Of a stretch of DNA of 64,000 bases, positions 21,855-56,334 are shown piece after piece. Made by a program: the position numbers and the translations under genes. Position 1 is the first letter of the stretch. Each line of letters opens with the position of its first letter. The notes beneath the pieces were generated by a model. That model was not told where the DNA came from and ran no database searches. It worked only from the letters and a program-made list of their open reading frames with translations. Where the stretch lies: NCBI GenBank assembly GCA_030653505.1, contig JAURZK010000091.1, positions 1 to 64,000 on the forward strand. Reading direction: 5' to 3'. Source of the stretch: Rubrivivax sp. GTDB taxonomy: Bacteria; Pseudomonadota; Gammaproteobacteria; Burkholderiales; Burkholderiaceae_C.

Positions 21855-21929
21855 GCGACCGTGGTGAAGTGGATATCATGCGGCCCTCCGAAGGCCACGT
21901 CGCAGGTTCGATTCCTGCCGGTCGCACCA
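21855..21929 (+). tRNA. tRNA-Arg (anticodon CCG)
   Basis: Full cloverleaf: acceptor GCGACCG pairs with CGGTCGC, D stem GTGA/TCAT, anticodon loop CTCCGAA with anticodon CCG at 21888-21890, and T arm GCAGG-TTCGATT-CCTGC. The CCA end is encoded (21927-21929). It reads the CGG codon, common in this GC-rich genome. A TAGAAT -10 box at 21835-21840 is in the right place; the -35 is not obvious. The 27-43 pair of the anticodon stem is a C-A mismatch. Confidence 0.95.
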
Positions 21930-40390: not shown

Positions 40391-40424
40391 CTTGGGGCCT
40401 CAGGGTGGCAAGCCCAGCCTATTG

Positions 40425-40439
40425 TTCCTGAATCAGGAA
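40425..40439. promoter_or_regulatory. Palindrome upstream of the LysR gene
   Basis: TTCCTGA-A-TCAGGAA, a perfect 7+7 inverted repeat, 35 bp upstream of the lysR start and in an AT-richer stretch. It is a plausible LysR binding site for autoregulation and for control of the divergent EF-hand gene. Confidence 0.55.
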
Positions 40440-40593
40440 TAAACGATTGATAGATATGTCATTTTCAACCTCAGAACGAAATTCTAAAGTCCATTCCATG
40501 GCGACGGAGACAGGAACTCCCAGCCGAGGTGACCGGCGCAGACGCCCAGCGGGCGCAGGTACCCGAACTCCCAACCTCCTAAAGGACTGAACC

Positions 40594-40929
40594 ATGAACA
40601 CCCGCCTCCTCACTTCCGCCGTGCTGGCCCTTTCGTTGCTCGCCTCGGGTGCGGCCTCGGCAGCCGACGCAACGGGCGGCCTGCCCCAGGTCGCCGCCCC
40701 GCAGGGCCAGCAGACCGTGCGCTCTATGTTCACGTTTGCCGACCGCAACAAGGACGGCCAGCTGACGCGCGCCGAGGCCAAGGGCCACCTGCCCGCCACC
40801 TACGCCAGCTTCGACAGCATCGACGCCGCCAAGCGCGGCTGGATCAGCGTCGAGCAGTTCGCCGAGTTCACGAACCAGCGTGTCGGCAAGCAGGCCGAAG
40901 ACGTGCTGAAGGTCGGCCAATGGCACTGA
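40594..40929 (+). CDS. Secreted EF-hand protein
   Basis: Exported 111-aa protein with a signal peptide (1-23, ending SAA). A canonical EF-hand loop DRNKDGQLTRAE (~res 50-61) and a second degenerate one (DSIDAAKRGWISVEQFAEF) suggest Ca2+ binding. RBS AAAGGA lies upstream. Small periplasmic EF-hand proteins of this size are common in betaproteobacteria and lack assigned roles. Its stop codon merges into the structured repeat array. Confidence 0.85.
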   Translation: MNTRLLTSAVLALSLLASGAASAADATGGLPQVAAPQGQQTVRSMFTFADRNKDGQLTRAEAKGHLPATYASFDSIDAAKRGWISVEQFAEFTNQRVGKQAEDVLKVGQWH

Positions 40930-41140
40930 GACTGCGCGTGAGGCTCCGCAAGGAGCCGCACGGCTGTCGAAGGCTCGCGGGCGATTTCACGCCCGCGGGC
41001 TGAGTCTGCTCGGGCGGGCCCGCCAAGGACCCGCTCGCCTCACGTAGGTGCGATTTCACGCCCGAGGGCTGAGACTGCGCGCGAGGCCAGGGAAGGAGCA
41101 CGACGGTTGTCGGGCCGAAAACCGTTGCACGCGTACGGGC
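40927..41140 (+). repeat. Three tandem copies of the structured repeat (B, C, D)
   Basis: Units at 40927-41000, 41001-41069 and 41070-41140 each begin TGAG(A/T)CTGC and, except D, end near GATTTCACGCCCGxGGGC. Copy B folds well: GGCTCC-GCAA-GGAGCC with a GNRA loop, the conserved ACGGCTGTCGAAGGC core and CGCGGGCG-ATTTCA-CGCCCGCG. Copies C and D diverge in sequence but keep the spacing. A fourth copy sits alone at 14,835. The remaining 41,141-41,269 shows nothing beyond the leader of the next gene. Confidence 0.7.
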
Positions 41141-41269
41141 TGACCCGTGGCCGCACGGCCGCGCTGCGGCGCCGCCGCCACACCCCCAAGGCCGCTGGAT
41201 GCGCAGCGGGTTACGGTCTGTCACAGTGCCTGCTAGCCTTTCGCGGTCTCTGCCGCCAAGCCAGCCTGC

Positions 41270-43633
41270 ATGACCTCCCCGCCCTCTATCTTCTGCACCG
41301 CGGCCCTTGGCTTGGCCTTGCTCGCGGCCGGGCCCGCCACGGCGCAGGTCCAGCTCAGCGAAACGCCACCCGGGCCGGTGGGCGGCGTGCCGGCCACGCT
41401 GCCGCAGATTCAGCTGCCCCAGGTGCGCGACCTCAAGGTCGACGTGCCGCGTCCGGTGCGCGCCGCGCAGGCCGCCCTGGGCCTGGGCCGGCAGCGCCTG
41501 GCGCTGGTGGTGGGCCTGGGCACCGTGGGCACGCGTCGGGTGGTCGACAGCGCCGCGCGCGACACCGCGGCCGTGGCCTCGGCGCTGCGCAGCGGCGGCT
41601 TCGTCGTCATGCAGCGCAGCGACGTCAGCGCGGCAGAACTGCGCCGCGCACTGCAGGAATTCCGCACCCGCCTGCAGCCCGCCGGCGTGGGCTTCGTCTA
41701 CCTCACCGGTCTGGGCGCACAGCTCGACGGCCGCAACCTGCTGCTGGCGCGTGAAACGCTGCTCGACCCGGCCCTGCCGGCCGGCGCGCTGGCCGCGCAG
41801 CTGCGCGACGCAGCCGTGCCGCTGGACGAGGTGACCGACGCACTCATCGGCCCGGTCGACAGCCCGCGCCTGCTGGTCGTCGACGCCGCCTGGAAGCACC
41901 CCGCGCTGGCCCGCCTGCCGCTTCCCGGCCTGGCCGAGCCGCGCCTGCCCGTGGGCACGATGGCTCTCTTCGGCCAAGCCCTGGGCAGCGCGCAGGAAGT
42001 GCCCTACGTCGCACCACTGCCCATCCCGGCACCCACCGACGCGGTGGCCCTGGCCGCCACGCCCTTTGCGCGCACGCTGGTCGCGGCCCTGCTCACGCCG
42101 CGCATCAGCGGCCCCGAGGCGCTGCGCAGCACACGCCGCGCCATCGCCGAAGCCACGCTGGGTCAGGCCAGCCCCTGGCTGGGCGGCGACACCGAAGCAC
42201 GCGAGGAATTCGCCGAGGCCACGCTGCTCGACGGCCTGATACCGCGCACACCCGAGGAGATCGCAAGGGAAGGCGCTCGCCAGGCCTCGCGCCTGGTGAC
42301 GCGGCCCGGCGCGGCGCGCGCCGGCGAGCTGCCGGTTGCCGAAGTGCTGCGGCAAGGCCATGCGGCGGTGCCGCCGGACGACGGCGCACGCAAGCCCGCC
42401 GACAACGCCAACAAACTGCCCGAAGCGCCCGGCACGGCCAGCAGCCTGGGCAGCGTCGCAGGCAAGGTTGCCGGCGCGCTGGGCGCGGCCGCCGGCGTGG
42501 CGGCCACTGTCGCGGGCACGACGGCCACCGCAGCGGCCGTCGAAGCTGCGGTGGTGGCCGCCGCGGCCACCACGGCCGTCGGCCTGGCCAGCACCGCGGC
42601 AGGCGCGGCCACTTCGACGCTTGGCAATGCCGCGGCGCTGGCCGCCCGCATCACAGCCGCCGGCGCCACGCCGGCAGGCGCTGCCGCGGTTCAGGCTGCG
42701 GCATCGACCGTGCCGACTGCACCCAGCCTTGGAACCGGCACCGCATCAGTCACCCCGCCCGCGTCCCCCGCAGCGACCGTCCTGCCCCCCGGCCCGGCAC
42801 CCGCTCCCGCCGTGACGGGCGGCGCACCCACGGCCGCCGCGATGACGCCCGCCGCTGCCGACGTCGGCGCTGCTGCGGCCGCCGCTGGCGGCGCGAACCT
42901 GGCCCGGCGCATCGCGCAGACGGCCCTCACCAGCGCCGCCGACGGCACGGCGCAGAACGACAACGCCCCACGCAGCCCGTCCGACACCGACGGCCGCACC
43001 CAGCGCGGCCCTGACGGCGGTGAACGCCCGCGTTTCACGCCGCGCACCAACCCCAACGGTTATGCCGAGGGCGACACCTTCACCTGGCAGGTCACCGACA
43101 CCTGGAAGGGTGAGGTGGCGGGCAAGTACACGACGGCGATCGAACAGGTGCTGGACGACGGCCGTCTGGTCGCCAACGGCCAGCAGGTGCAGTTGGACGC
43201 GCAGGGCCGGGTGACGAGACACGTCAACGCCGAAGGCGGCGTCTCGCAGTTCGACCCGGCGCAGGCACTGTGGTGGGCCAAGCCCGTGGCGGGCGAGCGG
43301 CGCATCGTCAAGTACGTCGAGAAGTTCCGGCGCGCCGACCGTGCGGCCGGCCAGACCGAGTGGACGGGCTCGGCCCGCGTCGGCAAGCTGCGCAAGCTGC
43401 AGACGCCGGCCGGCGAATTCGAGGTGCTGCCGGTGGAAAGCAGCGGCTGGTGGTACACGAAGCTGGCCAACGGCACGCTCAGCAGCGGCCAGTGGAGCCG
43501 CACCGCCTACTACGCACCCAGGCTGGGCCACCCGGTGGCCATCGAGATCGAGAACGCCGACCGCCTGGGCAAGCTGATGAAGCGCGAACGCATCGACCTG
43601 CTGCACGCACAGACGGCGCGCACTCAGCCTTGA
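41270..43633 (+). CDS. Exported pseudo-caspase (C14-like, catalytically dead)
   Basis: Protein of 787 aa with a signal peptide (1-26, ending TATAQ). Residues ~75-215 follow the metacaspase-like p20 pattern (RLALVVGLGTVG, DTAAVASALRSGGF, VYLTGLGAQLDGRNLLL, LLVVDAAWKHP), but the catalytic His of YxxGHG is Leu148 and the Cys of DAC is Ala207, so it cannot be a protease. A long Ala-rich low-complexity region (~400-590) leads to a C-terminal beta-rich domain (~600-785, GDTFTWQVTDTWKGEVAGKYTT). Its stop overlaps the start of the RlpA gene. Probably a scaffold or sensor in the cell envelope. Confidence 0.75.
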   Translation: MTSPPSIFCTAALGLALLAAGPATAQVQLSETPPGPVGGVPATLPQIQLPQVRDLKVDVPRPVRAAQAALGLGRQRLALVVGLGTVGTRRVVDSAARDTAAVASALRSGGFVVMQRSDVSAAELRRALQEFRTRLQPAGVGFVYLTGLGAQLDGRNLLLARETLLDPALPAGALAAQLRDAAVPLDEVTDALIGPVDSPRLLVVDAAWKHPALARLPLPGLAEPRLPVGTMALFGQALGSAQEVPYVAPLPIPAPTDAVALAATPFARTLVAALLTPRISGPEALRSTRRAIAEATLGQASPWLGGDTEAREEFAEATLLDGLIPRTPEEIAREGARQASRLVTRPGAARAGELPVAEVLRQGHAAVPPDDGARKPADNANKLPEAPGTASSLGSVAGKVAGALGAAAGVAATVAGTTATAAAVEAAVVAAAATTAVGLASTAAGAATSTLGNAAALAARITAAGATPAGAAAVQAAASTVPTAPSLGTGTASVTPPASPAATVLPPGPAPAPAVTGGAPTAAAMTPAAADVGAAAAAAGGANLARRIAQTALTSAADGTAQNDNAPRSPSDTDGRTQRGPDGGERPRFTPRTNPNGYAEGDTFTWQVTDTWKGEVAGKYTTAIEQVLDDGRLVANGQQVQLDAQGRVTRHVNAEGGVSQFDPAQALWWAKPVAGERRIVKYVEKFRRADRAAGQTEWTGSARVGKLRKLQTPAGEFEVLPVESSGWWYTKLANGTLSSGQWSRTAYYAPRLGHPVAIEIENADRLGKLMKRERIDLLHAQTARTQP

Positions 43634-44574
43634 ACCCGGCCTTGAACATCGCCCTGAACCCGGCCTGGCACCCGCGCGCCGCACGGTTGGCCCTGCTGGC
43701 CGCGCTGGCGCTGCTCACCGGCTGCGCCAGCGGCCCGCGCACCGGGCGCGACGGCCCGCCGGCGCGCCCGCCCGCCGGCCTGGAGCAGGTGCCCGACGCC
43801 GTGCCGCGGGTCGAGCCGCTGCGCATCGGCGGGCCCAACAAGCCCTACGAAGTGCTGGGGCAGCGCTACGCGCCCCACACCAGCGACGTGCCGCTGCAGG
43901 AAAACGGCCTTGCCTCGTGGTACGGCACCAAGTTCCATGGCCAGCCCACGTCCAGCGGCGAGCCCTACGACATGTACGGCATGACGGCGGCACACAAGAC
44001 CATGCCCATCCCCAGCTACGCGCGGGTGCGCAACCCGGCCAACGGCCGCGAGGTGGTGGTGCGCATCAACGACCGCGGGCCTTTTGCCGCCGGGCGGGTC
44101 ATCGACCTCAGCTACACCGCGGCGCTGAAGCTCGGCGTGCTGCGCGGTGTGACGCCGGTGCAGGTGCAGCGACTGACTTTCGACGACATCCGCAGCGGCC
44201 GCTGGCGCAGCCCGCGTGACGCAGCGGCCATGCCCGCGCCGCTCACGACCCCGGTGCCGCAGCCGCCCGCCGTCGCCGTGGCCGCGCTGTCGGGCGACGA
44301 CCTGGCACCTGGCGACGCGGCCACGTCGGGCTACTGGCTGCAGCTCGGCGCCTTCCGCACCCGCGACGCCGCGCTGCGTCTGCAACTGCGACTGCGCGAC
44401 GAAGGCGATGCGAGCCTGGCCGCGGTGGCGGTGTTCGAGGGCGACGGCTGGTTCCGCGTCCAGGCCGGCCCCTACGCCACACGCGCGCAGGCGCAGCAGG
44501 CGGCCGACGCCGGCCTGCGTGCCAGCGGACGAAGTGCCCTCGTGATCGAGCGCAGTGCATCCCTAAATCGGTAG
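43630..44574 (+). CDS. rlpA: RlpA-like septal ring lytic transglycosylase, lipoprotein
   Basis: Outer-membrane lipoprotein of 314 aa. The signal ends in LLTGC (lipobox). The double-psi barrel domain shows ENGLASWYGTKFHGQPTSSGEPYDMYGMTAAHKTMP, with the catalytic Asp expected in INDRGPF, then RVIDLSYTAALKLG. The C-terminal SPOR domain (WLQLGAFRTRDAALRLQLRL... RVQAGPYATRAQAQ) binds denuded septal peptidoglycan. No ATG is near; TTG 43630 overlaps the previous stop (TTGA) and a TTG at 43642 is an alternative. The tight coupling to the pseudo-caspase gene is unusual. Confidence 0.9.
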   Translation: MNPALNIALNPAWHPRAARLALLAALALLTGCASGPRTGRDGPPARPPAGLEQVPDAVPRVEPLRIGGPNKPYEVLGQRYAPHTSDVPLQENGLASWYGTKFHGQPTSSGEPYDMYGMTAAHKTMPIPSYARVRNPANGREVVVRINDRGPFAAGRVIDLSYTAALKLGVLRGVTPVQVQRLTFDDIRSGRWRSPRDAAAMPAPLTTPVPQPPAVAVAALSGDDLAPGDAATSGYWLQLGAFRTRDAALRLQLRLRDEGDASLAAVAVFEGDGWFRVQAGPYATRAQAQQAADAGLRASGRSALVIERSASLNR

Positions 44575-44637
44575 TCGGCCCGGCTTGCCGGGGGCCGGCT
44601 TTGCGCAGATGCTCGCCGTCCCGCCCCAGGAGAGTCC

Positions 44638-47600
44638 ATGGCTGCCACCGCCCCCGTCGCCAACGCGCCCATCACCTTCGTCATTCCCGGCCAGCGCCAG
44701 GTCAGCCGCGGCGGTGCGCCGCGCAGCGCCGCCACCAGCGGGCTGCCGGGACAGGTGAAGGAGTCGGTGCGCGTGGCGGCGCGGCGCGGCGCCGGCGACG
44801 CCGTGCGCGTGACGGCGGTGCCCGGCGAGGACGTGGTGCTGCTGCACATCACTGGTGGCCCGGCGCTGGTGCTGCACCCCGAGACGGCGCGTGACCTCAT
44901 GCTGGGCCAGGGCACCGTGTCACGCAGCGCGCCCGGTGCCGGCAGCGGCGACGTGATCGTGCCCAGCCATCTGCGCTGGCGCGGGCTGGAGCAGGCCGCA
45001 CCCACACGCAGCGGCGGTTTCCTGGGCGACGTGGTGCTCTCGGCCTTCGAGGTGATCACCGGCTTCGCCAAGGACAAGGCGGTCGACTTCGCCACCAGCC
45101 TGGTGGTGCAGAAGGTCGACGGCCAGGTCGACGCCGGCGTCTATGCGCTCAAGCGTGAGTCCCTGGCGGCGCTGAAGGGCAGCGGTCTCAAGCTGGCGAA
45201 AGTGCCTGCGCCGGCGCAGCCGGCCACGCAGCCGCTGCTGGTGCTGGTGCACGGCACCTTCGTCGACACCTTCAGCACCTTCGGCAAGCTGTGGGCGCTG
45301 CACCCACAGAGGGTCAATGAACTCTTTGCGCACTACGGCGGCCGTGTCTACGCGCTCGACCACCCCACCGTCGGCTACAGCCCGATGGCCAACGCGCTGA
45401 CGCTGGTGCAGGCACTCCCCGACGGTGCGCACCTGCACCTGGCCACACATTCCCGCGGCGGCCTGGTCGCCGAGGTGCTGGCGATGGTGGCCGAGCGCAT
45501 CGCCGCCAAGCGCGACCTCGATGACGACGACTTCGCCTTCTTCGCCGGCGCCGACTACGCCAAGCAGCGCCAGGAACTGAAGGACCTGGCCACGGCCGTG
45601 CGTGCCAAGGGCATACGCGTCGGGCGCGTGCTGCGCGTGGCCTGCCCGGCACGCGGCACGCTGCTGGCCAGCAAGCGGCTCGACGCCTACCTCTCGGTTC
45701 TGAAGTGGAGCATCGAACTCGCCGGCGTGCCGGTGGCGCCGGCGGTGGTCGACTTCCTGACCGAGGTGGCGCGCCGCCGCGCCCGCCCCGACGAACTGCC
45801 GGGCCTGGCCAGCATGATCCCCGACACGCCGCTGGTGAACTGGCTCAATTCCAGCGAAGACCCCATCACCGGCGACCTGCGCGTGGTGGCCGGCGACCTG
45901 CAGGGCGACAGCATCGGCAGCTGGCTCAAGACGCTGCTGGCCGACGCCTACTACTGGACCGACAACGACATCGTCGTGCAGACACGCAGCATGTACGGCG
46001 GCGCGCCACGCCAGAGCGGCGCCAGCTTCCTGCTCGACCAGGGTGGCAAGGTCAACCACTTCAACTACTTCGTCAACGAACGTACGGTGCAGGCCGTGGT
46101 CGGCGGCCTGACGCAGGCCGCACCCGCGGGCTTCCGCACCATCGGCCCGCTGTCGTGGGCAGGCCAGGACAGCGGTGGCCTGCGCGCCGCGCGCCGCGGC
46201 AGCGAAGACGGCCGCGCTGCCAGCGACAAACCCGCGGTCTTCGTGCTGCCCGGCATCCTGGGCAGCCACCTGAAGGCGGGTGACAAGCGCATCTGGCTCA
46301 GCCTGCGCCTCGTCGGAGGCCTGGGCAAGCTGAAGTACCGGCCCGACGTGCCCGACGACGTGCTGCCCGACGGCCCCATCGGCATGGTCTACGACGACCT
46401 CATCGACTACCTCTCGGCCACGCACGAGGTCATCCCGTTCGCCTTCGACTGGCGCCGCCCCATCGAGGACGAAGCACGCCGCCTGGCCGACGCGGTGGAC
46501 CATGCGCTCGACACGCGCAACGCCAGCGGCCAGCCGGTGCGCCTGCTGGCGCACAGCATGGGCGGCGTGGTGGCGCGAACCATGCAGCTGGAACGGCCCA
46601 AGACCTTCGAGCGCCTGATGCAGCGCGCCGGCGCCCGTTTCGTGATGCTGGGCACGCCCAACGGCGGCTCGTGGGCACCGATGCAGGTGCTGTCGGGCGA
46701 CGACACCTTCGGCAACACGCTGGTGGCCTTCGGCTCGCCGCTGCGCGACCGCCAGGCACGCCAGCTGATGGCCGAGTTTCCCGGCTTCATCCAGCTGCAG
46801 GCTTCGCTGCTCGACAGCAGCCTCGGCCTGGACAAGGAAGGCACCTGGCGGCAGCTGGCGCAGGACGACCTGAAACGTGTGCAGGAAGCCAACTGGTGGC
46901 ACCGCTACGCGGGCGACGAAGGCAACGCTGCCTACGCCTGGGGCGTGCCGCCGCAACCCGTGCTGGACCAGGCGCGAGGGCTGCGCGAAAGGCTCGACAC
47001 GCAGCGCGACAAGGTGCTCAAGACCTTCGCCGAGAAGACGCTGCTGGTGGTCGGCCACGCCAAGTTCACGCCCGACGGCTACGAGTGGGGCGCCGACGGC
47101 TTCAGCTACCTCGACGCCACCGACGGCGGCGACGGCCGCGTGCCGCTGACGAGCGCGCTGCTGCCCGGTGTGCGCACCTGGAAACTGGACTGCGAACACG
47201 GCAGCCTGCCCGACGCGGCCAAGGCCTTCGAGGCCTACCTCGAGCTGCTGACCCGCGGCGACACGACACGCCTGGAACGCCTGGCCGACCCCGCGCCCGC
47301 GACACGTGGCGCGGGCGGCGGCATCGCCGTGCCGGTGGTGCACGTGCGCAGCCGCCCTTCGCGCGCGCGGCCCACGGCGCGGCCGGCCGACAGCGAGGCC
47401 TCGGTCTTCACCGGTCGCAGCACCATGCCCGACAGCACCGCCAGCCCGGGCGGCGCGGCGCTGCGGGTCACCGTGCTCAACGGCAACCTCAGCTTCGTCA
47501 AGCAGCCGCTGATGGTGGGCCACACCCGTTCGCTGGCCCTCTTCGGGTCCGAGGCGGCGGTGAACAAGCTCATCGGCGGCGCGATGAAGGCCTCGCTCGA

Positions 47601-50175
47601 CGCCGGGCTCTACCCGGACCTGCCCGGCACGCACCAGGTCTTCATGAACACACGCACCGACCCCGAAAACCCCTGGCGCGCGCCGCAGCCTTCGTGCGTG
47701 GTGGTGGTGGGCCTGGGCGACGAGGGCAAGCTCACCGAGCAGGAACTGGCGCGCACCGTGCGCCAGGGCGTCATTGCCTGGGCCCAGCGCACGGCCGAAA
47801 GCACCAGCGGCGCACCGGCGGCCATCGAGCTGGCGGCCACCTTGATGGGCAGCGGCGGTGTCGGCGTGAACGCCAGCAACGCGGCGCGGGCCATCGCGCA
47901 GGGCGTGCGCGACGCCAACGACCGCATGGTGCGCAGCGGCTGGCCGCTGGTGAGCGCGCTGACGCTGGTCGAGCTCTACCTGGAACGTGCGTCGGACGCC
48001 TGGAACGGCCTGCAGGTGCTGGCCGCCGCCACGCCCGGGCGCTTCGAGGTCACGCCCACCATCGAAAGCGGCATCGGCCCCCTGCGCCGGCAGATGGACA
48101 GCGGCTACCGCGGCGCCGACTACGACTTCATCACCGCCACCAGCCCCAGCGACGACACCATCGCCTTTGCGCTCGACACCAAGCGAGCGCGCACCGAGGT
48201 GCGTGCGCAGAGCACGCAGGGCAAGCTGCTGCGTGAACTGGTGGCCAAGGCCTCCACCGCCGGCAGCGGCGACACACGGTTGGGCAACACCCTGTTCCAG
48301 CTGCTGGTGCCGCCCGAGGTCGAGCCCTTCCTGGCCGGCACCAGCCGCATGCTGCTGGAACTGGACGACCGCACCGCCGCCATCCCCTGGGAACTGCTGG
48401 ACGCGCAGAACGACGACGGCACACGCAGCGACGTGCGGCCCTGGGCCATCCGCACCCAGCTGATCCGCAAGCTGCGGCAGGAACATTACCGCCAGCAGGT
48501 GCAGGACGCCAGCATCGACGACGCCGTGCTCGTCATCGGCGAACCCAAGGTCGACGCCGCCAACTACCCGGCGCTGCCCGGTGCGCGCAGCGAGGCGCTG
48601 GCCGTGGTCGACGCGCTGGCCGGCCCGGGCGGGCTGCAGGCGCAGCGCGTGACGGCGCTGGTCGACGACAACGACGCGATGAGCATCGTCAACGCGCTGT
48701 TCGAGCGCCGCTACCGCATCGTGCACGTGGCCGGCCACGGCGAGCCGGTGCTAAAGGACGCCAACGGCAAGCTGGTCAACAAGGGCGGCGTGGTGCTGTC
48801 GGACGGCACCTTCCTGGGCGCCGACGAGATCCAGAGCATGCGCACGGTGCCCGAGCTCGTCTTCGTCAACTGCTGCCACTTGGCGGCGCGCGAGAGCGGC
48901 CGGGTGCTGCGCACGATCAACCGCGCCGAGTTCGCGTGGGGCGTGGCCGACTCTCTCATCGAGATCGGCGTGCGCTGCGTCATCGCCGCAGGTTGGGCGG
49001 TGGACGACGGGCCGGCCAAGGTCTTCGCCACCACCTTCTACCGCGAGATCCTCGACCGCAAGCCCTTCATCACCGCCGTGGCCAGCGCACGCGAGGCGGC
49101 CTGGAACGCCGACCGCAACAGCAACACCTGGGCCGCCTACCAGGCCTATGGCGACCCGAACTGGACCTACCGCCGCAGCGCGGTGGACGCGGCGACGACA
49201 CCGCCGCCACCGCAGGAGGAATTCGGCGGCGTAGCGTCGCCGCTGGGCCTGGCGCTGGCGCTTGAAGAGCTGGCCGTGAAGTCGAAGTTCATGCTTGCCG
49301 ACGCCACCGAGCAACTCGAGAAGGTGCGCCACCTGGAAGCGCGCTTCGCCACGTTGTGGGGCGGCATGGGCGCGGTGGCCGAAGCCTTCGGCCTGGCCTA
49401 TGGCGAGGCCGGCGACCGCGACGCCGCCATCGACTGGTACAGCCGCGCCTTGCAGTGCAACGACGCCAGCGCGTCGATCAAGACCCACGAGCAGTTGGGC
49501 AACCTGCGTGCGCGCCGCGCCTGGGCGCACGCCGACAAGGCGAAATCGGTGGCCGCGTTGGCCGCGCCCCGTGCCGAGCTCACGCGCGCCTTGCAGGACC
49601 TGCAGGCCCTGGTCGGCATCCAGCCGACGATGGAAAGACACAGCCTGTGCGGCTCGGCCTTCAAACGCCTGGCCATGCTGGAACGCAAGGCGGGGCGCGC
49701 AGCGCAGGCCACGCAGGCGCTGAAGTCGGCCGCCGAGGCCTACCGCCAGGCCGAGGCGCTGGCCAGCAACGGCCCGGTCAGCGGCCTGTTCTACCCGGCA
49801 CTGAACCGCATGGCGCTGGAACTGGTGGCCAACCTGGGCCAGGCGGGCTGGGCCGGCTTCGACGCCGAGGCCAACGCCGCAACACGGCGCAGCCTGCAGG
49901 CCAAGGCCACCGACGACCCCGATTTCTGGAGTTATGCCGGCCTCATCGAGCTTGAGATGCTCGAGGCCGTCGCCGCCGGCGTGCTGGCCGACGCGCTGCC
50001 GACGCTGGAAGACCGCCACGCAGAGCTCCACGGCCGTGTGGCCGGTCGCAACCTGTGGGGCTCGGTGGCCGACCAGGCGAACTTCGTGCTGACACCCTAC
50101 GCCGAACAAGCGCCCCGCCGCGAGGCCGAGGCCGCGAACACGCTGCTGGACGTGCTGCGCGGCTACACGAAGTAA
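44638..50175 (+). CDS. Giant lipase-lipase-CHAT-TPR protein
   Basis: A 1845-aa cytoplasmic protein without signal peptide. Domain 1 (~195-490): alpha/beta hydrolase with LVHGTFVDTF and nucleophile Ser272 in THSRGG. Domain 2 (~530-890): LCAT/PGAP1-like hydrolase with VLPGILGSHL and Ser640 in AHSMGG. A disordered linker (~890-940) leads to an alpha/beta domain (~945-1150), whose VVVVGLGDEGKLTEQELARTV recalls the M17-peptidase N-terminal fold. The CHAT domain follows (~1240-1530; IPWELLD, HVAGHGE with His1367, VFVNCCHLA with Cys1413), then a helical TPR-like tail (~1560-1830). CHAT dyad and both lipase serines are intact. An RBS AGGAGAG precedes ATG. No characterised protein with this order is known to me. 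Confidence 0.85.
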   Translation: MAATAPVANAPITFVIPGQRQVSRGGAPRSAATSGLPGQVKESVRVAARRGAGDAVRVTAVPGEDVVLLHITGGPALVLHPETARDLMLGQGTVSRSAPGAGSGDVIVPSHLRWRGLEQAAPTRSGGFLGDVVLSAFEVITGFAKDKAVDFATSLVVQKVDGQVDAGVYALKRESLAALKGSGLKLAKVPAPAQPATQPLLVLVHGTFVDTFSTFGKLWALHPQRVNELFAHYGGRVYALDHPTVGYSPMANALTLVQALPDGAHLHLATHSRGGLVAEVLAMVAERIAAKRDLDDDDFAFFAGADYAKQRQELKDLATAVRAKGIRVGRVLRVACPARGTLLASKRLDAYLSVLKWSIELAGVPVAPAVVDFLTEVARRRARPDELPGLASMIPDTPLVNWLNSSEDPITGDLRVVAGDLQGDSIGSWLKTLLADAYYWTDNDIVVQTRSMYGGAPRQSGASFLLDQGGKVNHFNYFVNERTVQAVVGGLTQAAPAGFRTIGPLSWAGQDSGGLRAARRGSEDGRAASDKPAVFVLPGILGSHLKAGDKRIWLSLRLVGGLGKLKYRPDVPDDVLPDGPIGMVYDDLIDYLSATHEVIPFAFDWRRPIEDEARRLADAVDHALDTRNASGQPVRLLAHSMGGVVARTMQLERPKTFERLMQRAGARFVMLGTPNGGSWAPMQVLSGDDTFGNTLVAFGSPLRDRQARQLMAEFPGFIQLQASLLDSSLGLDKEGTWRQLAQDDLKRVQEANWWHRYAGDEGNAAYAWGVPPQPVLDQARGLRERLDTQRDKVLKTFAEKTLLVVGHAKFTPDGYEWGADGFSYLDATDGGDGRVPLTSALLPGVRTWKLDCEHGSLPDAAKAFEAYLELLTRGDTTRLERLADPAPATRGAGGGIAVPVVHVRSRPSRARPTARPADSEASVFTGRSTMPDSTASPGGAALRVTVLNGNLSFVKQPLMVGHTRSLALFGSEAAVNKLIGGAMKASLDAGLYPDLPGTHQVFMNTRTDPENPWRAPQPSCVVVVGLGDEGKLTEQELARTVRQGVIAWAQRTAESTSGAPAAIELAATLMGSGGVGVNASNAARAIAQGVRDANDRMVRSGWPLVSALTLVELYLERASDAWNGLQVLAAATPGRFEVTPTIESGIGPLRRQMDSGYRGADYDFITATSPSDDTIAFALDTKRARTEVRAQSTQGKLLRELVAKASTAGSGDTRLGNTLFQLLVPPEVEPFLAGTSRMLLELDDRTAAIPWELLDAQNDDGTRSDVRPWAIRTQLIRKLRQEHYRQQVQDASIDDAVLVIGEPKVDAANYPALPGARSEALAVVDALAGPGGLQAQRVTALVDDNDAMSIVNALFERRYRIVHVAGHGEPVLKDANGKLVNKGGVVLSDGTFLGADEIQSMRTVPELVFVNCCHLAARESGRVLRTINRAEFAWGVADSLIEIGVRCVIAAGWAVDDGPAKVFATTFYREILDRKPFITAVASAREAAWNADRNSNTWAAYQAYGDPNWTYRRSAVDAATTPPPPQEEFGGVASPLGLALALEELAVKSKFMLADATEQLEKVRHLEARFATLWGGMGAVAEAFGLAYGEAGDRDAAIDWYSRALQCNDASASIKTHEQLGNLRARRAWAHADKAKSVAALAAPRAELTRALQDLQALVGIQPTMERHSLCGSAFKRLAMLERKAGRAAQATQALKSAAEAYRQAEALASNGPVSGLFYPALNRMALELVANLGQAGWAGFDAEANAATRRSLQAKATDDPDFWSYAGLIELEMLEAVAAGVLADALPTLEDRHAELHGRVAGRNLWGSVADQANFVLTPYAEQAPRREAEAANTLLDVLRGYTK

Positions 50176-50228
50176 GGCGCTTTCGGAAGTTGCACGCCGG
50201 CCGCCGCGCGCGGACGCAAGAACCCAAG

Positions 50229-50248
50229 GGCCGCCGCGGGCAGCGGCC
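50229..50248. terminator. Hairpin between convergent CHAT and SDR genes
   Basis: GGCCGC / GCGGCC stem with an 8-base loop, between stops of convergent genes, no T tract. Possibly a bidirectional transcript end. Confidence 0.4.
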
Positions 50249-50258
50249 TATGCTATGT

Positions 50259-51023
50259 CTAGCGCCCGCCGGTGACGTCAACGATGGCGCCGGTGGTGTA
50301 GCTGGACAGCGGCGACAGCAGCCACACGATGGCCTGCGCCACCTCTTCGGCGCTGCCGGGACGCTGCATCGGCACCGTGGGCGCCAGGCGGCGTGCGCGG
50401 TCGGGCTGGCCGCCACTGGCGTGGATCTGTGTGTCGATGATGCCGGGCCGCACCGCATTCACGCGCACACCCTCGGCCGCCACCTCGCGCGCCAGACCGA
50501 CGGTGAAGCTGTCCACTGCGCCCTTGGCCGCGGCGTAATCGACGTACTGCGCCGCAGCCCCCAGCACCGCCGCGGCCGAGCTGAGGTTGACGATGGCGCC
50601 GCCCTCGCCGCCATGGCGCGTGCTCATGCGGCGCACCGCCTCGCGAGCGCAGACCATCGTGCCGAAGACGTTGATGGCCAGCATGCGCTGCAGGCGCAGG
50701 CCGCTCATCTCGTCCAGGCGCGCGGCCACGTCCACCACGCCGGCGTTGTTCACCAGGCCGGCGAGCACACCCCCGCCGTCGCGCGTGTGGCGGTCGAGCG
50801 TCGCGAACATCGCGCGCACCTGGCCTTCATCGGCGACGTCGGCGCACAGCGTCAGCGCACGCTGGCCATGGGCACGCACGGCGTCGGCCACGGCATCTGC
50901 AGCGGCTTCGTCGTGGGCGTAGTTGATCGCAACCTCCCAGCCCTGGGCGGCGGCCAGGCGTGCCGTGGCCGCGCCGATGCCGCGGCTGGCGCCGGTGATG
51001 AGCAGGAGTGGTGCACGGGTCAT
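50259..51023 (-). CDS. SDR family oxidoreductase
   Basis: Classical short-chain dehydrogenase/reductase (254 aa) using NAD(P). Cofactor motif TGASRGIGAATA (res ~9-20), NNAG, catalytic Ser in NLSSAAAVLG, and YDYAAAKGAVDSF holding YxxxK in the form Y-AAAK. The C-terminal GAIVDVTGGR is typical of FabG-like proteins. ATG 51023 is used; 82 upstream codons overlap the divergent ABC leader. Substrate unknown. Divergent from the ABC importer genes. Confidence 0.92.
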   Translation of the reverse strand: MTRAPLLLITGASRGIGAATARLAAAQGWEVAINYAHDEAAADAVADAVRAHGQRALTLCADVADEGQVRAMFATLDRHTRDGGGVLAGLVNNAGVVDVAARLDEMSGLRLQRMLAINVFGTMVCAREAVRRMSTRHGGEGGAIVNLSSAAAVLGAAAQYVDYAAAKGAVDSFTVGLAREVAAEGVRVNAVRPGIIDTQIHASGGQPDRARRLAPTVPMQRPGSAEEVAQAIVWLLSPLSSYTTGAIVDVTGGR

Positions 51024-51156
51024 GACCGTATTCTGGCGCGGGCTGCGGTCGACGCCTCGCACGGCAGCCTTCCTCCCGCGGGCGCGCCCCGATGGGCCTT
51101 GCATCGCCCGTCGGCGAAAATCCGACGCGAACCCCAGTACAACCGGAGACACGACG

Positions 51157-52185
51157 ATGCAAAGACGACACCTGCTGCAGGCCACCTCGGCCGCCCTGCT
51201 GGCCGCGCCGGCCTTCCTGCGCGCCCAGGCGCTGGAGAAGACCAAGGTCACGCTGGCCGTCGGCGGCAAGAACCTGCTGTACTACCTGCCACTGACCATC
51301 GCCGAGCAGCGCGGCTATTTCAAGGACGAAGGACTGGACGTGACCATCGTCGACTTCGCCGGCGGCGCGCGTGCCCTGCAGGCCGTGGTCGGCGGCAGCG
51401 CCGATGTCGTCAGCGGCGCCTTCGAGCACACCGTGAACATGCAGGCCAAGGGCCAGCGCATGCGCGCCTTCGTGCTGCAGGGCCGCGCGCCGCAGATCGT
51501 GCTGGGCATCAACCCGAAGACCATGGCCGGCTTCAAGACCGTGGCCGACCTGAAGGGCAAGAAGATCGGCGTCACGGCGCCGGGCAGTTCCACCAACGTG
51601 ATGGTGAACTTCATCCTCGCCAAGGCCGGGCTGAAACCTTCGGACGTGTCGATCATCGGCGTCGGCGCCTCGCAGGGCGCGGTGGCGGCGATGCGCTCGG
51701 GCCAGATCGACGCCATCAGCAACCTCGACCCGGTGATCACGCTGCTGCAGCGCAGCGGCGACCTGAAGATCGTCAGCGACACGCGCATCGTGGCCGAGGC
51801 CGAGAAGGTCTTCGGCGGCCCCATGCCCGCCGGCTGCCTGTACGCGCCGCAGGCCTTCATCGACAAACACCCGGCGACCACGCAGGCGCTGGCTAACGCG
51901 ATGGTGCGTGCCGACAAGTGGATACAGGCCGCCGGCCCGGGCGACATCATCAAGAGCGTACCCGAGGGTTACCTGCTGGGCGACCGCGCCGTCTACATCG
52001 ACGCCTTCCTGGCCGCCAAGGGTGCGCTGTCTCCCGACGGCAGCTTCCCAGAGAAGGGCGCCGACACCGCCTTCCGCGCGCTGGCCAGCATCGACGCCGA
52101 GATCGGCAAGGCCAAGCTCGACCTGGCCGCGGTGTGGACCAACGACTTCGTGAAGCGAGCCAACACGAAGTACCCCAAGGGCTGA
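51157..52185 (+). CDS. ABC substrate-binding protein, NitT/TauT (NMT1-like) family
   Basis: Periplasmic binding protein of 342 aa with a signal peptide (RRHLLQATSAALLAAPAFLRAQA). The NMT1/SsuA-like start KTKVTLAVGGKNLLYYLPLTIAEQRGYFKDEGLDVTIVDFAGG, DLKGKKIGVTAPGSSTNVMVNFILAKAGL and AMRSGQIDAISNLDPVI place it with nitrate, taurine, sulfonate and pyrimidine-type importers. An RBS GGAGA precedes ATG 51157. The ATPase gene follows after 2 bp. Ligand not determinable. Confidence 0.92.
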   Translation: MQRRHLLQATSAALLAAPAFLRAQALEKTKVTLAVGGKNLLYYLPLTIAEQRGYFKDEGLDVTIVDFAGGARALQAVVGGSADVVSGAFEHTVNMQAKGQRMRAFVLQGRAPQIVLGINPKTMAGFKTVADLKGKKIGVTAPGSSTNVMVNFILAKAGLKPSDVSIIGVGASQGAVAAMRSGQIDAISNLDPVITLLQRSGDLKIVSDTRIVAEAEKVFGGPMPAGCLYAPQAFIDKHPATTQALANAMVRADKWIQAAGPGDIIKSVPEGYLLGDRAVYIDAFLAAKGALSPDGSFPEKGADTAFRALASIDAEIGKAKLDLAAVWTNDFVKRANTKYPKG

Positions 52186-52187
52186 TC

Positions 52188-53015
52188 GTGGCCGAGGTGG
52201 ATTCCGCGGCAGCACTCGCACTGCACGACGTCTCCTGCACCTTCGTCAGCAAGGACAACCCCGGCCAGCGCTACACCGCGGTGCGCGACGTCACGCTCAG
52301 CGTCGGTGCGGGCGAGTTCGTCAGCGTCGTCGGCCCCACGGGCTGCGGCAAGAGCACGCTGCTGAACGTCGCTGCCGGTTTGCTGGCACCGAGCACGGGC
52401 AGCGTGCAGGTCTTCGGCCAGGCACTGAACGGCATCAACCCGCGCGCCGGCTACATGTTCCAGGCCGACAGCCTGATGCCCTGGCGCACCGCCCTGGCCA
52501 ACGTGATGGCCGGGCTGGAATTCCGCGGCATGGCCGATGCCAAGGCGCGTGCCGAGGAATGGCTGCGCCGTGTCGGCCTGGGCGGCTTCGGCGACCGCTA
52601 CCCGCACCAGCTCTCGGGCGGCATGCGCAAGCGCACGAGCCTGGCGCAGACGCTGGCTCTGGACCCCGACATCATCCTGATGGACGAGCCTTTCTCGGCG
52701 CTGGACATCCAGACGCGGCAGCTGATGGAAAACGAGGTGCTGGCGCTCTGGCAGGCGAAGCGCAAAGCGGTGCTCTTCATCACCCACGACCTGGACGAGG
52801 CCATCGCGATGAGCGACCGCGTGGTGGTGCTGAGCGCCGGGCCTGCCAGCCACCCCATCGGTGAATTCAGCATCGACATCGCACGGCCTCGTGATGTCGC
52901 CGAAATCAAGACCACGCCGCGCTTCATCGAGCTGCACGCCGCCATCTGGGCCGTGTTGCGCGACGAGGTGCTGAAGGGTTATGCGCAGCAGCTGCAGGTG
53001 AAGGCCGCGGCATGA
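52188..53015 (+). CDS. ABC ATPase, NitT/TauT family
   Basis: Cytoplasmic ATPase of 275 aa: Walker A VGPTGCGKSTLLN, Q-loop GYMFQADSLMPWRT, signature LSGGMRKR, Walker B DIILMDEPFSALD and the His switch ITHDLDEA, as in SsuB/TauB. GTG 52188 starts 2 bp after the binding-protein stop. Powers the permease encoded after a short palindromic spacer. Confidence 0.94.
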   Translation: MAEVDSAAALALHDVSCTFVSKDNPGQRYTAVRDVTLSVGAGEFVSVVGPTGCGKSTLLNVAAGLLAPSTGSVQVFGQALNGINPRAGYMFQADSLMPWRTALANVMAGLEFRGMADAKARAEEWLRRVGLGGFGDRYPHQLSGGMRKRTSLAQTLALDPDIILMDEPFSALDIQTRQLMENEVLALWQAKRKAVLFITHDLDEAIAMSDRVVVLSAGPASHPIGEFSIDIARPRDVAEIKTTPRFIELHAAIWAVLRDEVLKGYAQQLQVKAAA

Positions 53016-53036
53016 GCGCCGAACGGCCGTTCCGAA

Positions 53037-53074
53037 GGCGCTCGCGCCCCCTTGCGGGGCCGGCGCGCAGCGCC
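53037..53074. repeat. Palindromic spacer inside the ABC operon
   Basis: Nested inverted repeats GGCGCT...AGCGCC around GCCCC-cttgc-GGGGC lie between the ATPase and permease genes. It is of the GC-rich intergenic type common in Burkholderiales and may tune expression within the operon. Confidence 0.5.
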
Positions 53075-53085
53075 TGGGGGGCACG

Positions 53086-53889
53086 ATGAAATACCTGCGT
53101 CTTTGGCAGGCCAGTCTGCTGGTCGCGCTGTTCACCTTCTGGTGGGCGATGACCACGCCCGGGCTGCTGCCCACCTTCATGTTCGACAACGACCGCCAGG
53201 CTGCCTTCTTCTTCGGCGAGCCGTTGAAGGTGCTGGCGCGCATCTGGGTGTGGTTCGTCACCGAGGCCGACATCTACCGCCACCTGGCGGTGACGCTGAT
53301 CGAGACGCTGCTGGCCTTCGGCGTCGGCTCGGTGCTGGGCCTGGGCGCCGGGCTGTGGCTGGCGCTGAGCCCCATGGCCAGCGCCATCCTCGAGCCCTAC
53401 GTCAAGGCTTTGAACAGCATGCCGCGCATCATCCTGGCGCCGATCTTCAGCGTCTGGTTCGGTCTCGGCATCGCGAGCAAGGTGGCCCTGGGCGTGACGC
53501 TGGTGTTCTTCATCGTCTTCTTCAACGTCTACCAGGGTGTGAAGGAAGTCAGCCCCGTGGTACTGGCCAACGCACGCATGCTGGGCGCCAACCGCAAGCA
53601 GCTGTTGCGTCATGTCTACCTGCCCAGCGCCACGAGCTGGGTGTTCAGCAGCCTGCACACCAGCGTCGGCCTGGCCTTCGTCGGCGCAGTGGTGGGCGAG
53701 TACTTGGGCAGCAGCCAAGGCGTGGGCTACCTCATCCTGCAGGCCGAGGGCACCTTCGACATCAATACCGTGATGGCCGGCATCCTGGTGCTGACGGCGT
53801 TTGCGCTGCTGCTCGACGCGGCGGTGGGCCGTGTCGAGAAGCGGCTCATGAAGTGGCAGCCGCGGGCGGGAGAGACCGAGAAGCTCTGA
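53086..53889 (+). CDS. ABC permease, NitT/TauT family
   Basis: Inner-membrane permease of 267 aa with about six helices and the EAA-type loop LANARMLGANRKQLLRHVYLPSA, preceded by PRIILAPIFSVWFGLGIASKVA, characteristic of SsuC/TauC. It completes the importer. The last 44 bases overlap the 3' end of the PEP-CTERM gene on the other strand. Confidence 0.93.
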   Translation: MKYLRLWQASLLVALFTFWWAMTTPGLLPTFMFDNDRQAAFFFGEPLKVLARIWVWFVTEADIYRHLAVTLIETLLAFGVGSVLGLGAGLWLALSPMASAILEPYVKALNSMPRIILAPIFSVWFGLGIASKVALGVTLVFFIVFFNVYQGVKEVSPVVLANARMLGANRKQLLRHVYLPSATSWVFSSLHTSVGLAFVGAVVGEYLGSSQGVGYLILQAEGTFDINTVMAGILVLTAFALLLDAAVGRVEKRLMKWQPRAGETEKL

Positions 53890-54334
53890 AACGCTGCGCC
53901 AGCGGCAGCGCAGCGAACGCGGCCAGCAACAGTGCGAGCGTGTCGGGTTCGGGCACGGCGGCGGCCGGGCCCCACACCGGGTTCAGCGCAAACGAGATCG
54001 TAGGGTCGCCCGGCTGCGCGTTCAGCCCGGCGTATGCGATGACGCTGCGCGAGACAAACCAGCTGCCCGGCAGAGGCGGGCCTGAACTGCAAGTCAACAC
54101 GTCGGTCAGCGCGCAGTGGTTGCCGAACAGGAAGGAACTCAGGTTGCCGGCGGCATTGAAGATCAACCCCGCCAGTGGCGCATCGGTCTCGTCGTAGTCC
54201 ACGCCCTCGAAGGCAAAGGCCAGATCGGTGATCACGCCGGTCCCCTGGTGTATGGCGCCCGGCACGGCCAGGCTGTCGTCGAAGCTGAAGTGGCCGGCAA
54301 CGCTCTGGCCGAGGAAGGGGCCGCTCGTGAACAT
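53846..54334 (-). pseudogene. 5'-truncated PEP-CTERM protein gene
   Basis: A 162-codon frame whose end is a clear PEP-CTERM sorting signal: VPEPDTLALLLAAFAALPLAQRFR (Val-Pro-Glu-Pro, a hydrophobic helix, then Arg). The body (FLGQSVAGHFSFDDSLAVPG, GDPTISFALNPVWG) is the usual beta-rich extracellular domain. PEP-CTERM proteins need an N-terminal signal peptide, and none exists upstream: in-frame sequence before ATG 54334 is nonsense-like and soon runs into the divergent phoX leader. The gene probably lost its 5' end. It is absent from simple gene calls because it overlaps the permease gene. Confidence 0.65.
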
Positions 54335-54396
54335 GCCCGCGGCGGGGCCAGAATGGCCGCCGCACACCTTGCACACGGAACAAGCAACCGAGCACC

Positions 54397-56322
54397 ATGA
54401 CCAAGGACTTCGACACCATGGAGGACAGCAACCGCTCCTCCAACCCCAGCATCCACGATGTCTCCGACCCCGCCCGCCGCACGCTGCTGCTTGGCGGTCT
54501 GGGCCTGTCGCTGGGTGCCCTGCTGGCGCCCGTGGCCGGCTGCGCCGCAGGGCCCGCGGGCGCGGGCGACGGCGGGCCGACACTGGGGTTCCCGTCGGTG
54601 GCAGCTTCGTCGGCCGACCGCGTGCTCGTGCCACCCGGCTATACCGCCACACCGCTGGCGCCCTGGGGCGAGCCGGTGGGCATCGCCGGCGCCATGCCGG
54701 CCTTCCAGTTCGACGCGAGCAACAACGCGGAAGACCAGGCGGTGCAGATGGGCATGCACCACGACGGCCTGCACTACTACGCGCTGGAGGGTTCACGCCG
54801 CGGCCTGCTGGCGGTGAACCAGGAGTACACCGACGAAGGCCTGCTGCACCGTGACGGCCAGAGCACCTGGAACCTGGACAAGGTGCGCAAGTCGCAGGCG
54901 GCACACGGCATCAGCGTGATCGAGATCGAGCTTCACGGCCAGCGATGGGACGTGGTGCGTCCCTCGCGCTACGCCCGGCGCATCACCGCGCTGACGCCGT
55001 TCTCGATCGGCGGCCCGGCCGCCGGCCACACGATGATGAGGACCGCGGCCGACCCGGGCGGCCGTACCGTGTTGGGCACCATCGCCAACTGCGCCAGCGG
55101 CAAGACACCCTGGGGCACCTACCTGTCGGGCGAAGAGAACTGGGCCAACTACTTCACCGCCGCCGACGTGCCCACCGCGCATGAACGACGCTGGGGCATC
55201 AACCGCGCCACCTGGTACCGGTGGCCCGAGTTCGACCCGCGCTTCGACACCGTGCGCAACCCCAACGAGCCCAACCGCTTCGGCTGGATCGTCGAGGTCG
55301 ACCCGATGGACCCCACGAGCACGCCCGTCAAGCGCACCGCGCTGGGCCGCGCGGCACACGAAGGCGCCTGGGTCGCGGTGACCAAGGACGGCCGCGCGGT
55401 GGTGTACTCGGGCGAAGACGCACGCTTCGAGTACATCTACAAGTTCGTCAGCCGCGACCGCATCGCCCCCGCCGGCAACGGCAAGACCGCGGCGCAGGCC
55501 AACGCCACGCTGCTGGACCACGGCACGCTCTACGTGGCGCGTTTCGACGCCGACGGCAGCGGCCGCTGGCTGCCGCTGGTGCATGCGTCGGTCTCGGGCC
55601 AGGGGCCGCTGACTGCCGCCAACGGCTTCGCAGACCCCGGCGAGGTGGTGATCAAGGCGCGCCAGGCGTCCGACCTGCTGGGTGCCACCAAGATGGACCG
55701 TCCCGAGTGGCTGGCGATCGACCCGAACACCGGCTGGGTCTACTGCACGCTGACCAACAACAGCGCCCGCGGCAGCGCGGGCAAGCCGGGTGTCGATGCC
55801 GCGAACCCGCGCGCCAACAACACGATGGGCCACATCATCCGCTGGCAGGAAAGCGGCGACTTCGCCGGCGAGACCTTCCGGTGGAACCACCTGCTGCTGG
55901 CCGGCGACCCCGTCAACAGCCGTGCCGAGGCCCAGGGCAACATCAGGGGCGATGCCTTCGCCGGCCCCGACACCATCGCCTTCGACAGCCGCGGTGTGCT
56001 CTGGATAGGCACCGACCATGCCGCCAGCGGCGAAGGTGATTGGGCGCGCATGGGCAACAACGCGCTGCTGGCCTGCAACCCCGTCAGCGGCGAGGTGCGG
56101 CGTTTCCTCGTCGGCCCGGTGCGCTGCGAGATCACCGGCTGCACCTGGACACCCGACGGCCGCACGATGTTCCTCAACGTCCAGCACCCCGGCTCAGGGG
56201 TGCCGCGCAACGGCAGCAACCCGCGGCAGTTCTCGAACTGGCCCGACTTCAACCCCGCCGGGCGGCCACGTTCGTCGACCGTCGTCGTGCGGCGGGTCGA
56301 CGGCGGGGTCATCGGGGCCTGA
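54397..56322 (+). CDS. phoX: PhoX family phosphatase (DUF839), exported
   Basis: Large periplasmic protein of 641 aa, PhoX type (PF05787). DPARRTLLLGGLGLSLGALLAPVAGC is a Tat-like signal with a Cys that could be a lipidation site. The beta-propeller core has MGMHHDGLHYYAL, LLAVNQEYTDEGLLHRDG, GTIANCASGKTPWGTYLSGEENWANYF, GRAAHEGAWVAVTKDGRAVVYSGEDARFEYIYKFV and LWIGTDHAASG, matching PhoX, a Ca2+- and Fe-dependent alkaline phosphatase. No Pho box was recognised upstream. DUF839 also includes non-phosphatase relatives, so activity is likely but unproven. Confidence 0.9.
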   Translation: MTKDFDTMEDSNRSSNPSIHDVSDPARRTLLLGGLGLSLGALLAPVAGCAAGPAGAGDGGPTLGFPSVAASSADRVLVPPGYTATPLAPWGEPVGIAGAMPAFQFDASNNAEDQAVQMGMHHDGLHYYALEGSRRGLLAVNQEYTDEGLLHRDGQSTWNLDKVRKSQAAHGISVIEIELHGQRWDVVRPSRYARRITALTPFSIGGPAAGHTMMRTAADPGGRTVLGTIANCASGKTPWGTYLSGEENWANYFTAADVPTAHERRWGINRATWYRWPEFDPRFDTVRNPNEPNRFGWIVEVDPMDPTSTPVKRTALGRAAHEGAWVAVTKDGRAVVYSGEDARFEYIYKFVSRDRIAPAGNGKTAAQANATLLDHGTLYVARFDADGSGRWLPLVHASVSGQGPLTAANGFADPGEVVIKARQASDLLGATKMDRPEWLAIDPNTGWVYCTLTNNSARGSAGKPGVDAANPRANNTMGHIIRWQESGDFAGETFRWNHLLLAGDPVNSRAEAQGNIRGDAFAGPDTIAFDSRGVLWIGTDHAASGEGDWARMGNNALLACNPVSGEVRRFLVGPVRCEITGCTWTPDGRTMFLNVQHPGSGVPRNGSNPRQFSNWPDFNPAGRPRSSTVVVRRVDGGVIGA

Positions 56323-56334
56323 AGGCCCGCAGCA

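Follow-up and report, generated by a model that had tools for sequence, protein, structure and literature searches.

A conserved bacterial protein carrying two alpha/beta-hydrolases, a CHAT protease domain and a TPR-S tail on a single chain

In bacterial gasdermin systems, membrane damage is gated by a CHAT or caspase protease, and in Csx29, the TPR-CHAT protein of Craspase (type III-E CRISPR), the TPR part precedes CHAT. LCAT and PLA2G15 are plasma or lysosomal enzymes of animals. Passages of recent reports describe a SAVED-CHAT protein that acts via a proteolytic cascade (PMC11229360), a caspase that activates a pro-nuclease in phage defence (PMC12799240) and a protein of a conflict locus that combines CHAT with TIR (PMC10907252), while excerpts of another trace components of the ASK signalosome to bacterial conflict systems (PMC8195603). 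The TPR region of ASK1 has been described in a paper whose main text uses neither of the words bacterial and prokaryotic (PMC10972558). Here, we analyze a gene in a 64,000-nucleotide stretch of Rubrivivax sp. DNA (contig JAURZK010000091.1, positions 1 to 64,000; hereafter, the window) that brings parts of these kinds together: at 44638..50175 on the + strand, it encodes two alpha/beta-hydrolases, a macro-like domain, a CHAT protease domain and a TPR-S tail in one protein of 1845 amino acids, an order supported by the open frame, Pfam matches and homologues of equal length.

The open reading frame (ORF; 44638-50175, +) comprises 1845 codons with no internal stop and follows a probable ribosome-binding site, AGGAG, read 5 bases 5′ of the ATG (44628..44632, +). 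A first-pass annotation had pointed to two nucleophile motifs, THSRGG (Ser272) and AHSMGG (Ser640), and to a CHAT His1367 and Cys1413, all of which we found where it had placed them. A search of ~5.8 billion proteins, with 7991 candidates scored, returned 1943 matches at E ≤ 0.001. The best 120 of these (query included) share 60–100% identity over 93–100% of the length; by precomputed Pfam annotation, counted by eye, DUF7379 and CHAT occur in 120/120, TPR-S in 118/120 and LCAT in 108/120 of them. Ser272, Asp444, His474, Ser640, His1367, and Cys1413 are invariant in this set, and Asp832 and His854 are kept in at least 119 of the 120 proteins. Across 31 members hand-chosen for diversity (query included; down to 26% identity), Asp444, His474, Asp832, His854, His1367, and Cys1413 are kept throughout, as are Ser272 and Ser640 in 30 of 31 each, with glycine in L066 and L070, respectively. 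Compared with the query, the other 30 members average ~53% identity in hydrolase 1, 49% in hydrolase 2 and 50% in CHAT, and less in the macro-like domain (43%), TPR-S (34%) and the linker (29%).

The 1845-aa chain is a conserved fusion common to many related bacteria, rather than a chance or faulty one. That sequencing error had joined separate genes is a negligible prospect: some homologues are indeed split, their ends out of frame near the linker, but homologues of the same length and domain order retain their active sites, and we rejected such an error because the same long frame recurs in many independent assemblies, some of them on contigs >1 Mb.

The N-terminal region (residues 1–190; 44638..45207, +) is strand-rich and of low confidence in model mca0f84e782bf; the Pfam scan of the protein found no family match in it. 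Next comes hydrolase 1 (residues ~197–500; 45226..46137, +), a DUF7379 alpha/beta-hydrolase (98.6 bits, above the curated cut-off; best stretch 201–293) whose nucleophile, Ser272 (45451-45453, +), likely forms a triad with Asp444 and His474. Hydrolase 2 (residues ~530–877; 46225..47268, +) resembles LCAT and lysosomal phospholipase A2 (PF02450, 29.5 bits, above the curated cut-off; residues 597–693); its nucleophile is Ser640 (46555-46557, +), and its likely triad partners are Asp832, within GDG-x-V, and His854. In the secondary structure of AlphaFold2 models made for the two halves of the chain, each serine sits after a strand and before a helix, as in a nucleophile elbow. Foldseek searches were followed by realignment of the top 1000 chains for each model, of which 977 and 1000 aligned. 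By profile, modelled fold and Ser-Asp-His residues, hydrolase 2 is an enzyme of the LCAT/lysosomal-phospholipase-A2 type, predicted to act on phospholipids. Hydrolase 1, which like the N-terminal region is barely covered by the realigned chains, matched generic alpha/beta-hydrolase folds only. The earlier description of two lipases hence suits hydrolase 2 but is too strong for hydrolase 1.

Downstream of the linker, a domain at residues ~939–1129 (47452..48024, +), originally noted as a further alpha/beta domain, adopts a macro or leucine-aminopeptidase (M17) N-domain fold in the model and is a possible ligand sensor, though its Peptidase_M17_N match falls below the Pfam cut-off (14.6 vs 23.4 bits; residues 1020–1095); a Rhizobium relative exceeds it (29.8 bits). 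The CHAT domain (48238..49167, +; PF12770, residues 1214–1506) is intact, scoring 110 bits against a cut-off of 24. Its His1367 (48736-48738, +) and Cys1413 (48874-48876, +), whose placement the first-pass annotation had set as a test of its proposal, each lie right after a strand in the models, as in the caspase/CHAT fold. The modelled fold is separase/Csx29-like with a catalytic His and Cys, and proteolysis is predicted. Foldseek's whole-model TM-scores for the CHAT matches are low (target-normalised 0.31–0.35 for the first three) because only parts of the long model align. What had been called a TPR-like tail (residues ~1534–1845; 49237..50172, +) is a recognised TPR-S domain (PF20308, 42.4 bits vs 27.6; residues 1595–1727), whose model resembles the central regulatory region of ASK1. 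No SAVED domain matched the protein in Pfam up to E 0.1, and neither gasdermin nor SAVED appears among the structure matches listed for the sensor parts, where a missing row is no proof of absence.

From the observed domains, residues and folds, together with the genomic site and partners described below, we infer a signal, a linker cut and a lipase activity; protection against phage would be a putative outcome. We propose, at a probability of roughly 40%, that the protein is a single-chain anti-invader suicide effector. A signal of infection, picked up by the C-terminal half, would switch the CHAT protease on; CHAT would then likely cut the flexible linker of its own chain, and the freed hydrolases, one of them a predicted phospholipase, would damage the membrane of the very cell that makes the protein. 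An NAD-derived nucleotide probably serves as the signal, since the macro-like and TPR-S domains flank CHAT, and TIR domains are fused or adjacent in several relatives. TIR enzymes make NAD-derived products, and Burroughs and Aravind (J Bacteriol, 2020) reportedly predicted that TPR-S reads NAD-derived signals. In its most specific form, which we regard as unlikely when taken as a whole, the proposal would cast this protein as a single-chain bacterial equivalent of death by inflammasome and gasdermin: a sensor made of an ASK1-like TPR and a macro-like domain would read a TIR-made, NAD-derived alarm, and CHAT self-cleavage would free a lysosomal-phospholipase-A2-like enzyme along with its partner hydrolase, with lipid hydrolysis in place of a pore.

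The candidate cleavage region is the flexible linker (residues ~884–937; 47287..47448, +), which contains RSRPSRARP. Residues 895–938 have a predicted local distance difference test (pLDDT) score <50 and are predicted to be disordered. At least three basic residues within seven occur at 884–937 in 118/120 close and 21/31 diverse members; for 100 comparison segments along the protein, the medians are 17 and 7.5, and 8% and 5% of segments, respectively, reach the linker's count. Basic sites would suit metacaspases and separase. The proposal of a low-complexity cut site thus retains its disorder and basic cluster, but the overall basic content is ordinary and the motif is limited to one clade. 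A universal cleavage motif was looked for in the 120 close and 31 diverse members and is absent beyond the clade; given that Craspase orthologues, according to passages of PMC11106740, cut nonconserved sites, its absence does not refute cleavage. The linker DNA (~47287-47448) is also GC-rich, and several homologues seem to go out of frame there, with some contigs of metagenome-assembled genomes ending in it or nearby. These frame breaks are probably assembly errors, though slippage in cells may contribute. Hydrolase-only genes were considered as a two-gene form and set aside, several of the 16 C-terminal ends listed looking out of frame near the linker.

To survey gene neighbourhoods, we took 89 adjacent ORFs from 46 loci that we selected and fetched along with the family, and aligned and scanned 84, omitting five (L017:15924-16256, L019:6926-7267, L022:123-344, L029:5580-5882, L137:3-218) as well as duplicate loci such as L025, which shares its contig with L083. 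ORFs were picked by a simple rule based on GC at third codon positions (GC3), which at times selects an antisense frame or a too-early start, so that neighbour counts are rough lower bounds. In 7/46 loci (L069, L070, L076, L077, L079, L080, L136; PF00656 above cut-off in each), the gene immediately upstream, which has the same orientation, encodes an intact metacaspase with SGHG and CHSG motifs. The CHAT proteins of the six aligned metacaspase loci are 32–86% identical to each other, arguing that several lineages share this pairing; in them, one protease would likely activate the other. In total, Peptidase_C14 was found in 10/84 adjacent ORFs, three of which (L018, L023, L031) are of the pseudo-caspase kind seen in the window (see below). 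The metacaspases of L069 (6249-7211) and L070 (12873-13715) are 74% identical and their CHAT partners only 36%, as if the metacaspase gene changed more slowly or was exchanged.

TIR domains form a second group of partners. TIR_2 occurs in 3/84 adjacent ORFs, one of which scores under the cut-off and is presumably a DUF4062 protein. A TIR gene overlaps the hydrolase-CHAT gene by 4 bp in L064, a TIR-PASTA frame of unsure start comes next downstream in L026 (E 2.9e-23), and in L135 there is a 4-bp overlap with a TPR-S gene whose start is TIR-like (PADLOC E 3.1e-7). Elsewhere, TIR is fused C-terminally (L137, E 3.9e-19; P0042, 29.6 bits vs 28; P0107, 25.6 bits, below cut-off), while the TIR calls in P0055 and P0103, made with a local profile trained on relatives, are weak. 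The L070 locus additionally holds TIR-NB-ARC-TPR, DUF4062-NB-ARC, and TPR-S genes. The first-pass term 'self-contained' is apt for the window, whereas some relatives have coupled metacaspase or TIR genes. Ten plasmid records hold a relative. On Rhizobium pRL31b3, two TIR-nSTAND1-WD40 genes flank a core-only protein, that is, one without the hydrolases; on another Rhizobium plasmid, SIR2 and nuclease genes lie downstream of the relative; restriction-modification genes and transposases surround the relative on an Azotobacter plasmid; and the Paracoccus plasmids have ordinary neighbours, with an upstream gene of ~1090 aa and no clear family. On a Rhizobium plasmid (L129:8797-9414), a glycosyl hydrolase 108/peptidoglycan-binding gene follows a core-only CHAT gene between two TIR-NTPase genes. 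Near the hydrolase-CHAT gene of four loci (L075:6672-7229, L074:16529-17176, L078:16362-16937, L136:3438-4082), we also observed a protein of ~190–215 aa with a LLFSGHMIDAPDR-like start; it has no Pfam match where scanned (L074, L075, L136), and its cluster also takes in proteins of L069 and L070.

In the window itself, an rlpA-type gene (DPBB and SPOR domains) lies upstream across a gap of 63 bp, and a convergent short-chain dehydrogenase, whose frame matches the dehydrogenase genes of relatives, lies downstream. In six distinct loci of relatives, the gene likewise adjoins an rlpA-type gene (gap 26–68 bp), and short-chain dehydrogenases and rlpA-type DPBB domains make up 10/84 and 6/84 of adjacent ORFs. 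In two of three fetched genomes without the gene (L132, L134), no other gene separates the rlpA-type gene from the dehydrogenase, and L133, the third, is consistent with this arrangement. The empty site and the recurrent neighbours indicate that in the window's genus the gene is accessory and often occupies a recurrent chromosomal site between rlpA-type and dehydrogenase genes; two divergent members of the genus (L076, L077) are located elsewhere. Within the genus, 58/81 genomes contain a match, 56/81 at ≥150 bits, the gene being absent or weak at that level in 25/81. Class-wide, 20/369 genomes match a core protein at E ≤0.001 (ten >200 bits, the window's own included), and phylum-wide 17/398 match (four >150 bits). 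The rlpA-type neighbour in the six loci and the window and the presence in most genomes of the genus would also fit a role in lipid remodelling or protein processing, as a housekeeping or stress protein that has nothing to do with invaders. We consider this quite improbable, as 25 of the 81 genus genomes lack the gene or hold it weakly, an empty site is observed, and some relatives have TIR, metacaspase, restriction-modification or NTPase neighbours. A toxin delivered into rival bacteria, akin to type VI phospholipases, is far less probable still: among the 25 of 77 families listed for the 84 adjacent ORFs, we noticed none for secretion or immunity, and CHAT and TPR-S would be odd cargo. Gasdermin is not among these 25 of 77 families either.

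Further upstream, at 41270-43633 (+), the window encodes a 787-aa protein that begins like a signal peptide and has a domain of the caspase fold (PF00656, E 5.2e-6). Compared to intact metacaspases, its His and Cys positions are Leu and Ala, so judged by sequence it is likely a dead caspase. We rejected it as a partner, as the catalytic residues are gone and a relative is present in L134, which has no CHAT gene; relatives occur in genomes with and without that gene. In L018 and L027, the pseudo-caspase frame continues into rlpA-type domains, which argues that the pseudo-caspase goes with rlpA. The window's genome has three further CHAT places, six caspase-domain places and two TIR places; of the six, one is this pseudo-caspase and one overlaps a CHAT place on C186. 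Rfam gave no match in 40000-56500, and the sole tRNA of the window (tRNA-Arg, 21855-21929) is far from the gene.

The family also extends to other architectures. With residues 935–1845 as query and domains mapped by BLASTP, the 120 matches listed comprise 35 macro-CHAT-TPR, 34 hydrolase2-macro-CHAT-TPR, 32 hydrolase1-macro-CHAT-TPR, 14 with both hydrolases, 4 with the N-terminal region and hydrolase 1, and 1 CHAT-TPR. Many shorter forms are contig-end fragments; however, two kinds look real, namely a form of about 1490 aa with hydrolase 1 only and core-only proteins beginning shortly ahead of the macro-like domain. One of the latter (P0196) lies on a 5.3-Mb contig, and a complete Rhizobium plasmid encodes a 936-aa protein with CHAT and TPR-S above cut-off and no hydrolase match; a second Rhizobium protein (1028 aa) reads LCAT-M17_N-CHAT. 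These shorter architectures suggest a macro-CHAT(-TPR-S) core that carries zero, one or two hydrolases.

Several of our observations weigh against a suicide effector that cuts itself. Core-only relatives without hydrolases exist. The SRP[SAP][RH]-form motif of the linker is limited to a clade (116/120 close, 13/31 diverse members), and its plain Arg plus Lys share is matched by 14% (close) and 16% (diverse) of comparison segments. Most of the 46 loci have neither a metacaspase nor a TIR partner among the 84 adjacent ORFs, and among the loci surveyed no intact metacaspase stands beside the gene in the window or its closest relatives. The window neighbours (rlpA-type, short-chain dehydrogenase, ABC transporter, PhoX) are housekeeping-like and form no defence island; no family of PADLOC-DB 2.0.0 matches the 1845-aa protein up to E 0.01; and no record of a phage collection holds a relative, which is expected of a host gene, yet gives no sign of an interplay with phage.

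Part of this evidence would suit a different arrangement, in which the hydrolases stay attached and are switched by a change of shape, while CHAT cuts another protein, e.g., the metacaspase or a regulator. In the CHAT-TPR-S proteins without hydrolases, CHAT must have other substrates; the metacaspase upstream in 7/46 loci would be at hand as one; the linker sequence is not kept outside the clade; and Craspase cleaves a separate protein, Csx30, as passages of PMC11106740 state. On the other hand, the window's gene has only a caspase-like protein without catalytic residues beside it, its linker combines low model confidence with a basic cluster, and the nonconserved sites of Craspase orthologues in that source mean that the lack of a conserved site lends this alternative no support. 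We view it as somewhat less probable than self-cleavage of the linker.

Should this model hold, a sensor, a protease switch and an enzyme that destroys membranes would reside on one chain, making protease-gated lipolysis directly testable, residue by residue. Phospholipase-type enzymes would join the effectors gated by CHAT or caspase proteases, and an ASK1-type TPR module would operate in a bacterial death switch, which bears on the origin of animal stress-death modules. Literature searches of titles, abstract starts and passages (subscription papers and supplements lay outside them) found no description of a hydrolase-CHAT-TPR-S architecture and left uncontradicted the first-pass statement that no characterised protein has this domain order. 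The parts are of known kinds, whereas a chain of phospholipase-type enzyme plus CHAT appears undescribed.

Among the known systems, Craspase is linked to the window protein through CHAT, which aligns to the C-terminal part of Csx29; however, TPR-S follows CHAT here (Pfam order), and Csx29 works with Cas7-11, cuts Csx30 in trans and has no hydrolases. SAVED-CHAT differs in its sensor: the window protein has no SAVED match, its tail combining TPR-S with a macro-like domain, and carries the hydrolases on board. According to passages of PMC12799240, a caspase-family protease also gates a pro-effector in the canu caspase-nuclease systems, but there as separate genes and with a nuclease, in place of a fused phospholipase-type enzyme. 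Similarly, the ternary VMAP systems, as passages of PMC7159879 describe them, pair the caspase superfamily with neighbouring alpha/beta-hydrolase genes, yet in a MoxR-vWA system of separate genes rather than one chain. LCAT and PLA2G15 share fold and nucleophile region with hydrolase 2 and have no fused protease. In ASK1, the central regulatory region, which the TPR-S tail resembles, gates a kinase, whereas the window protein would put a protease and hydrolases under its control. Lastly, bacterial gasdermins form a pore, while in the window protein an enzyme would damage the membrane.
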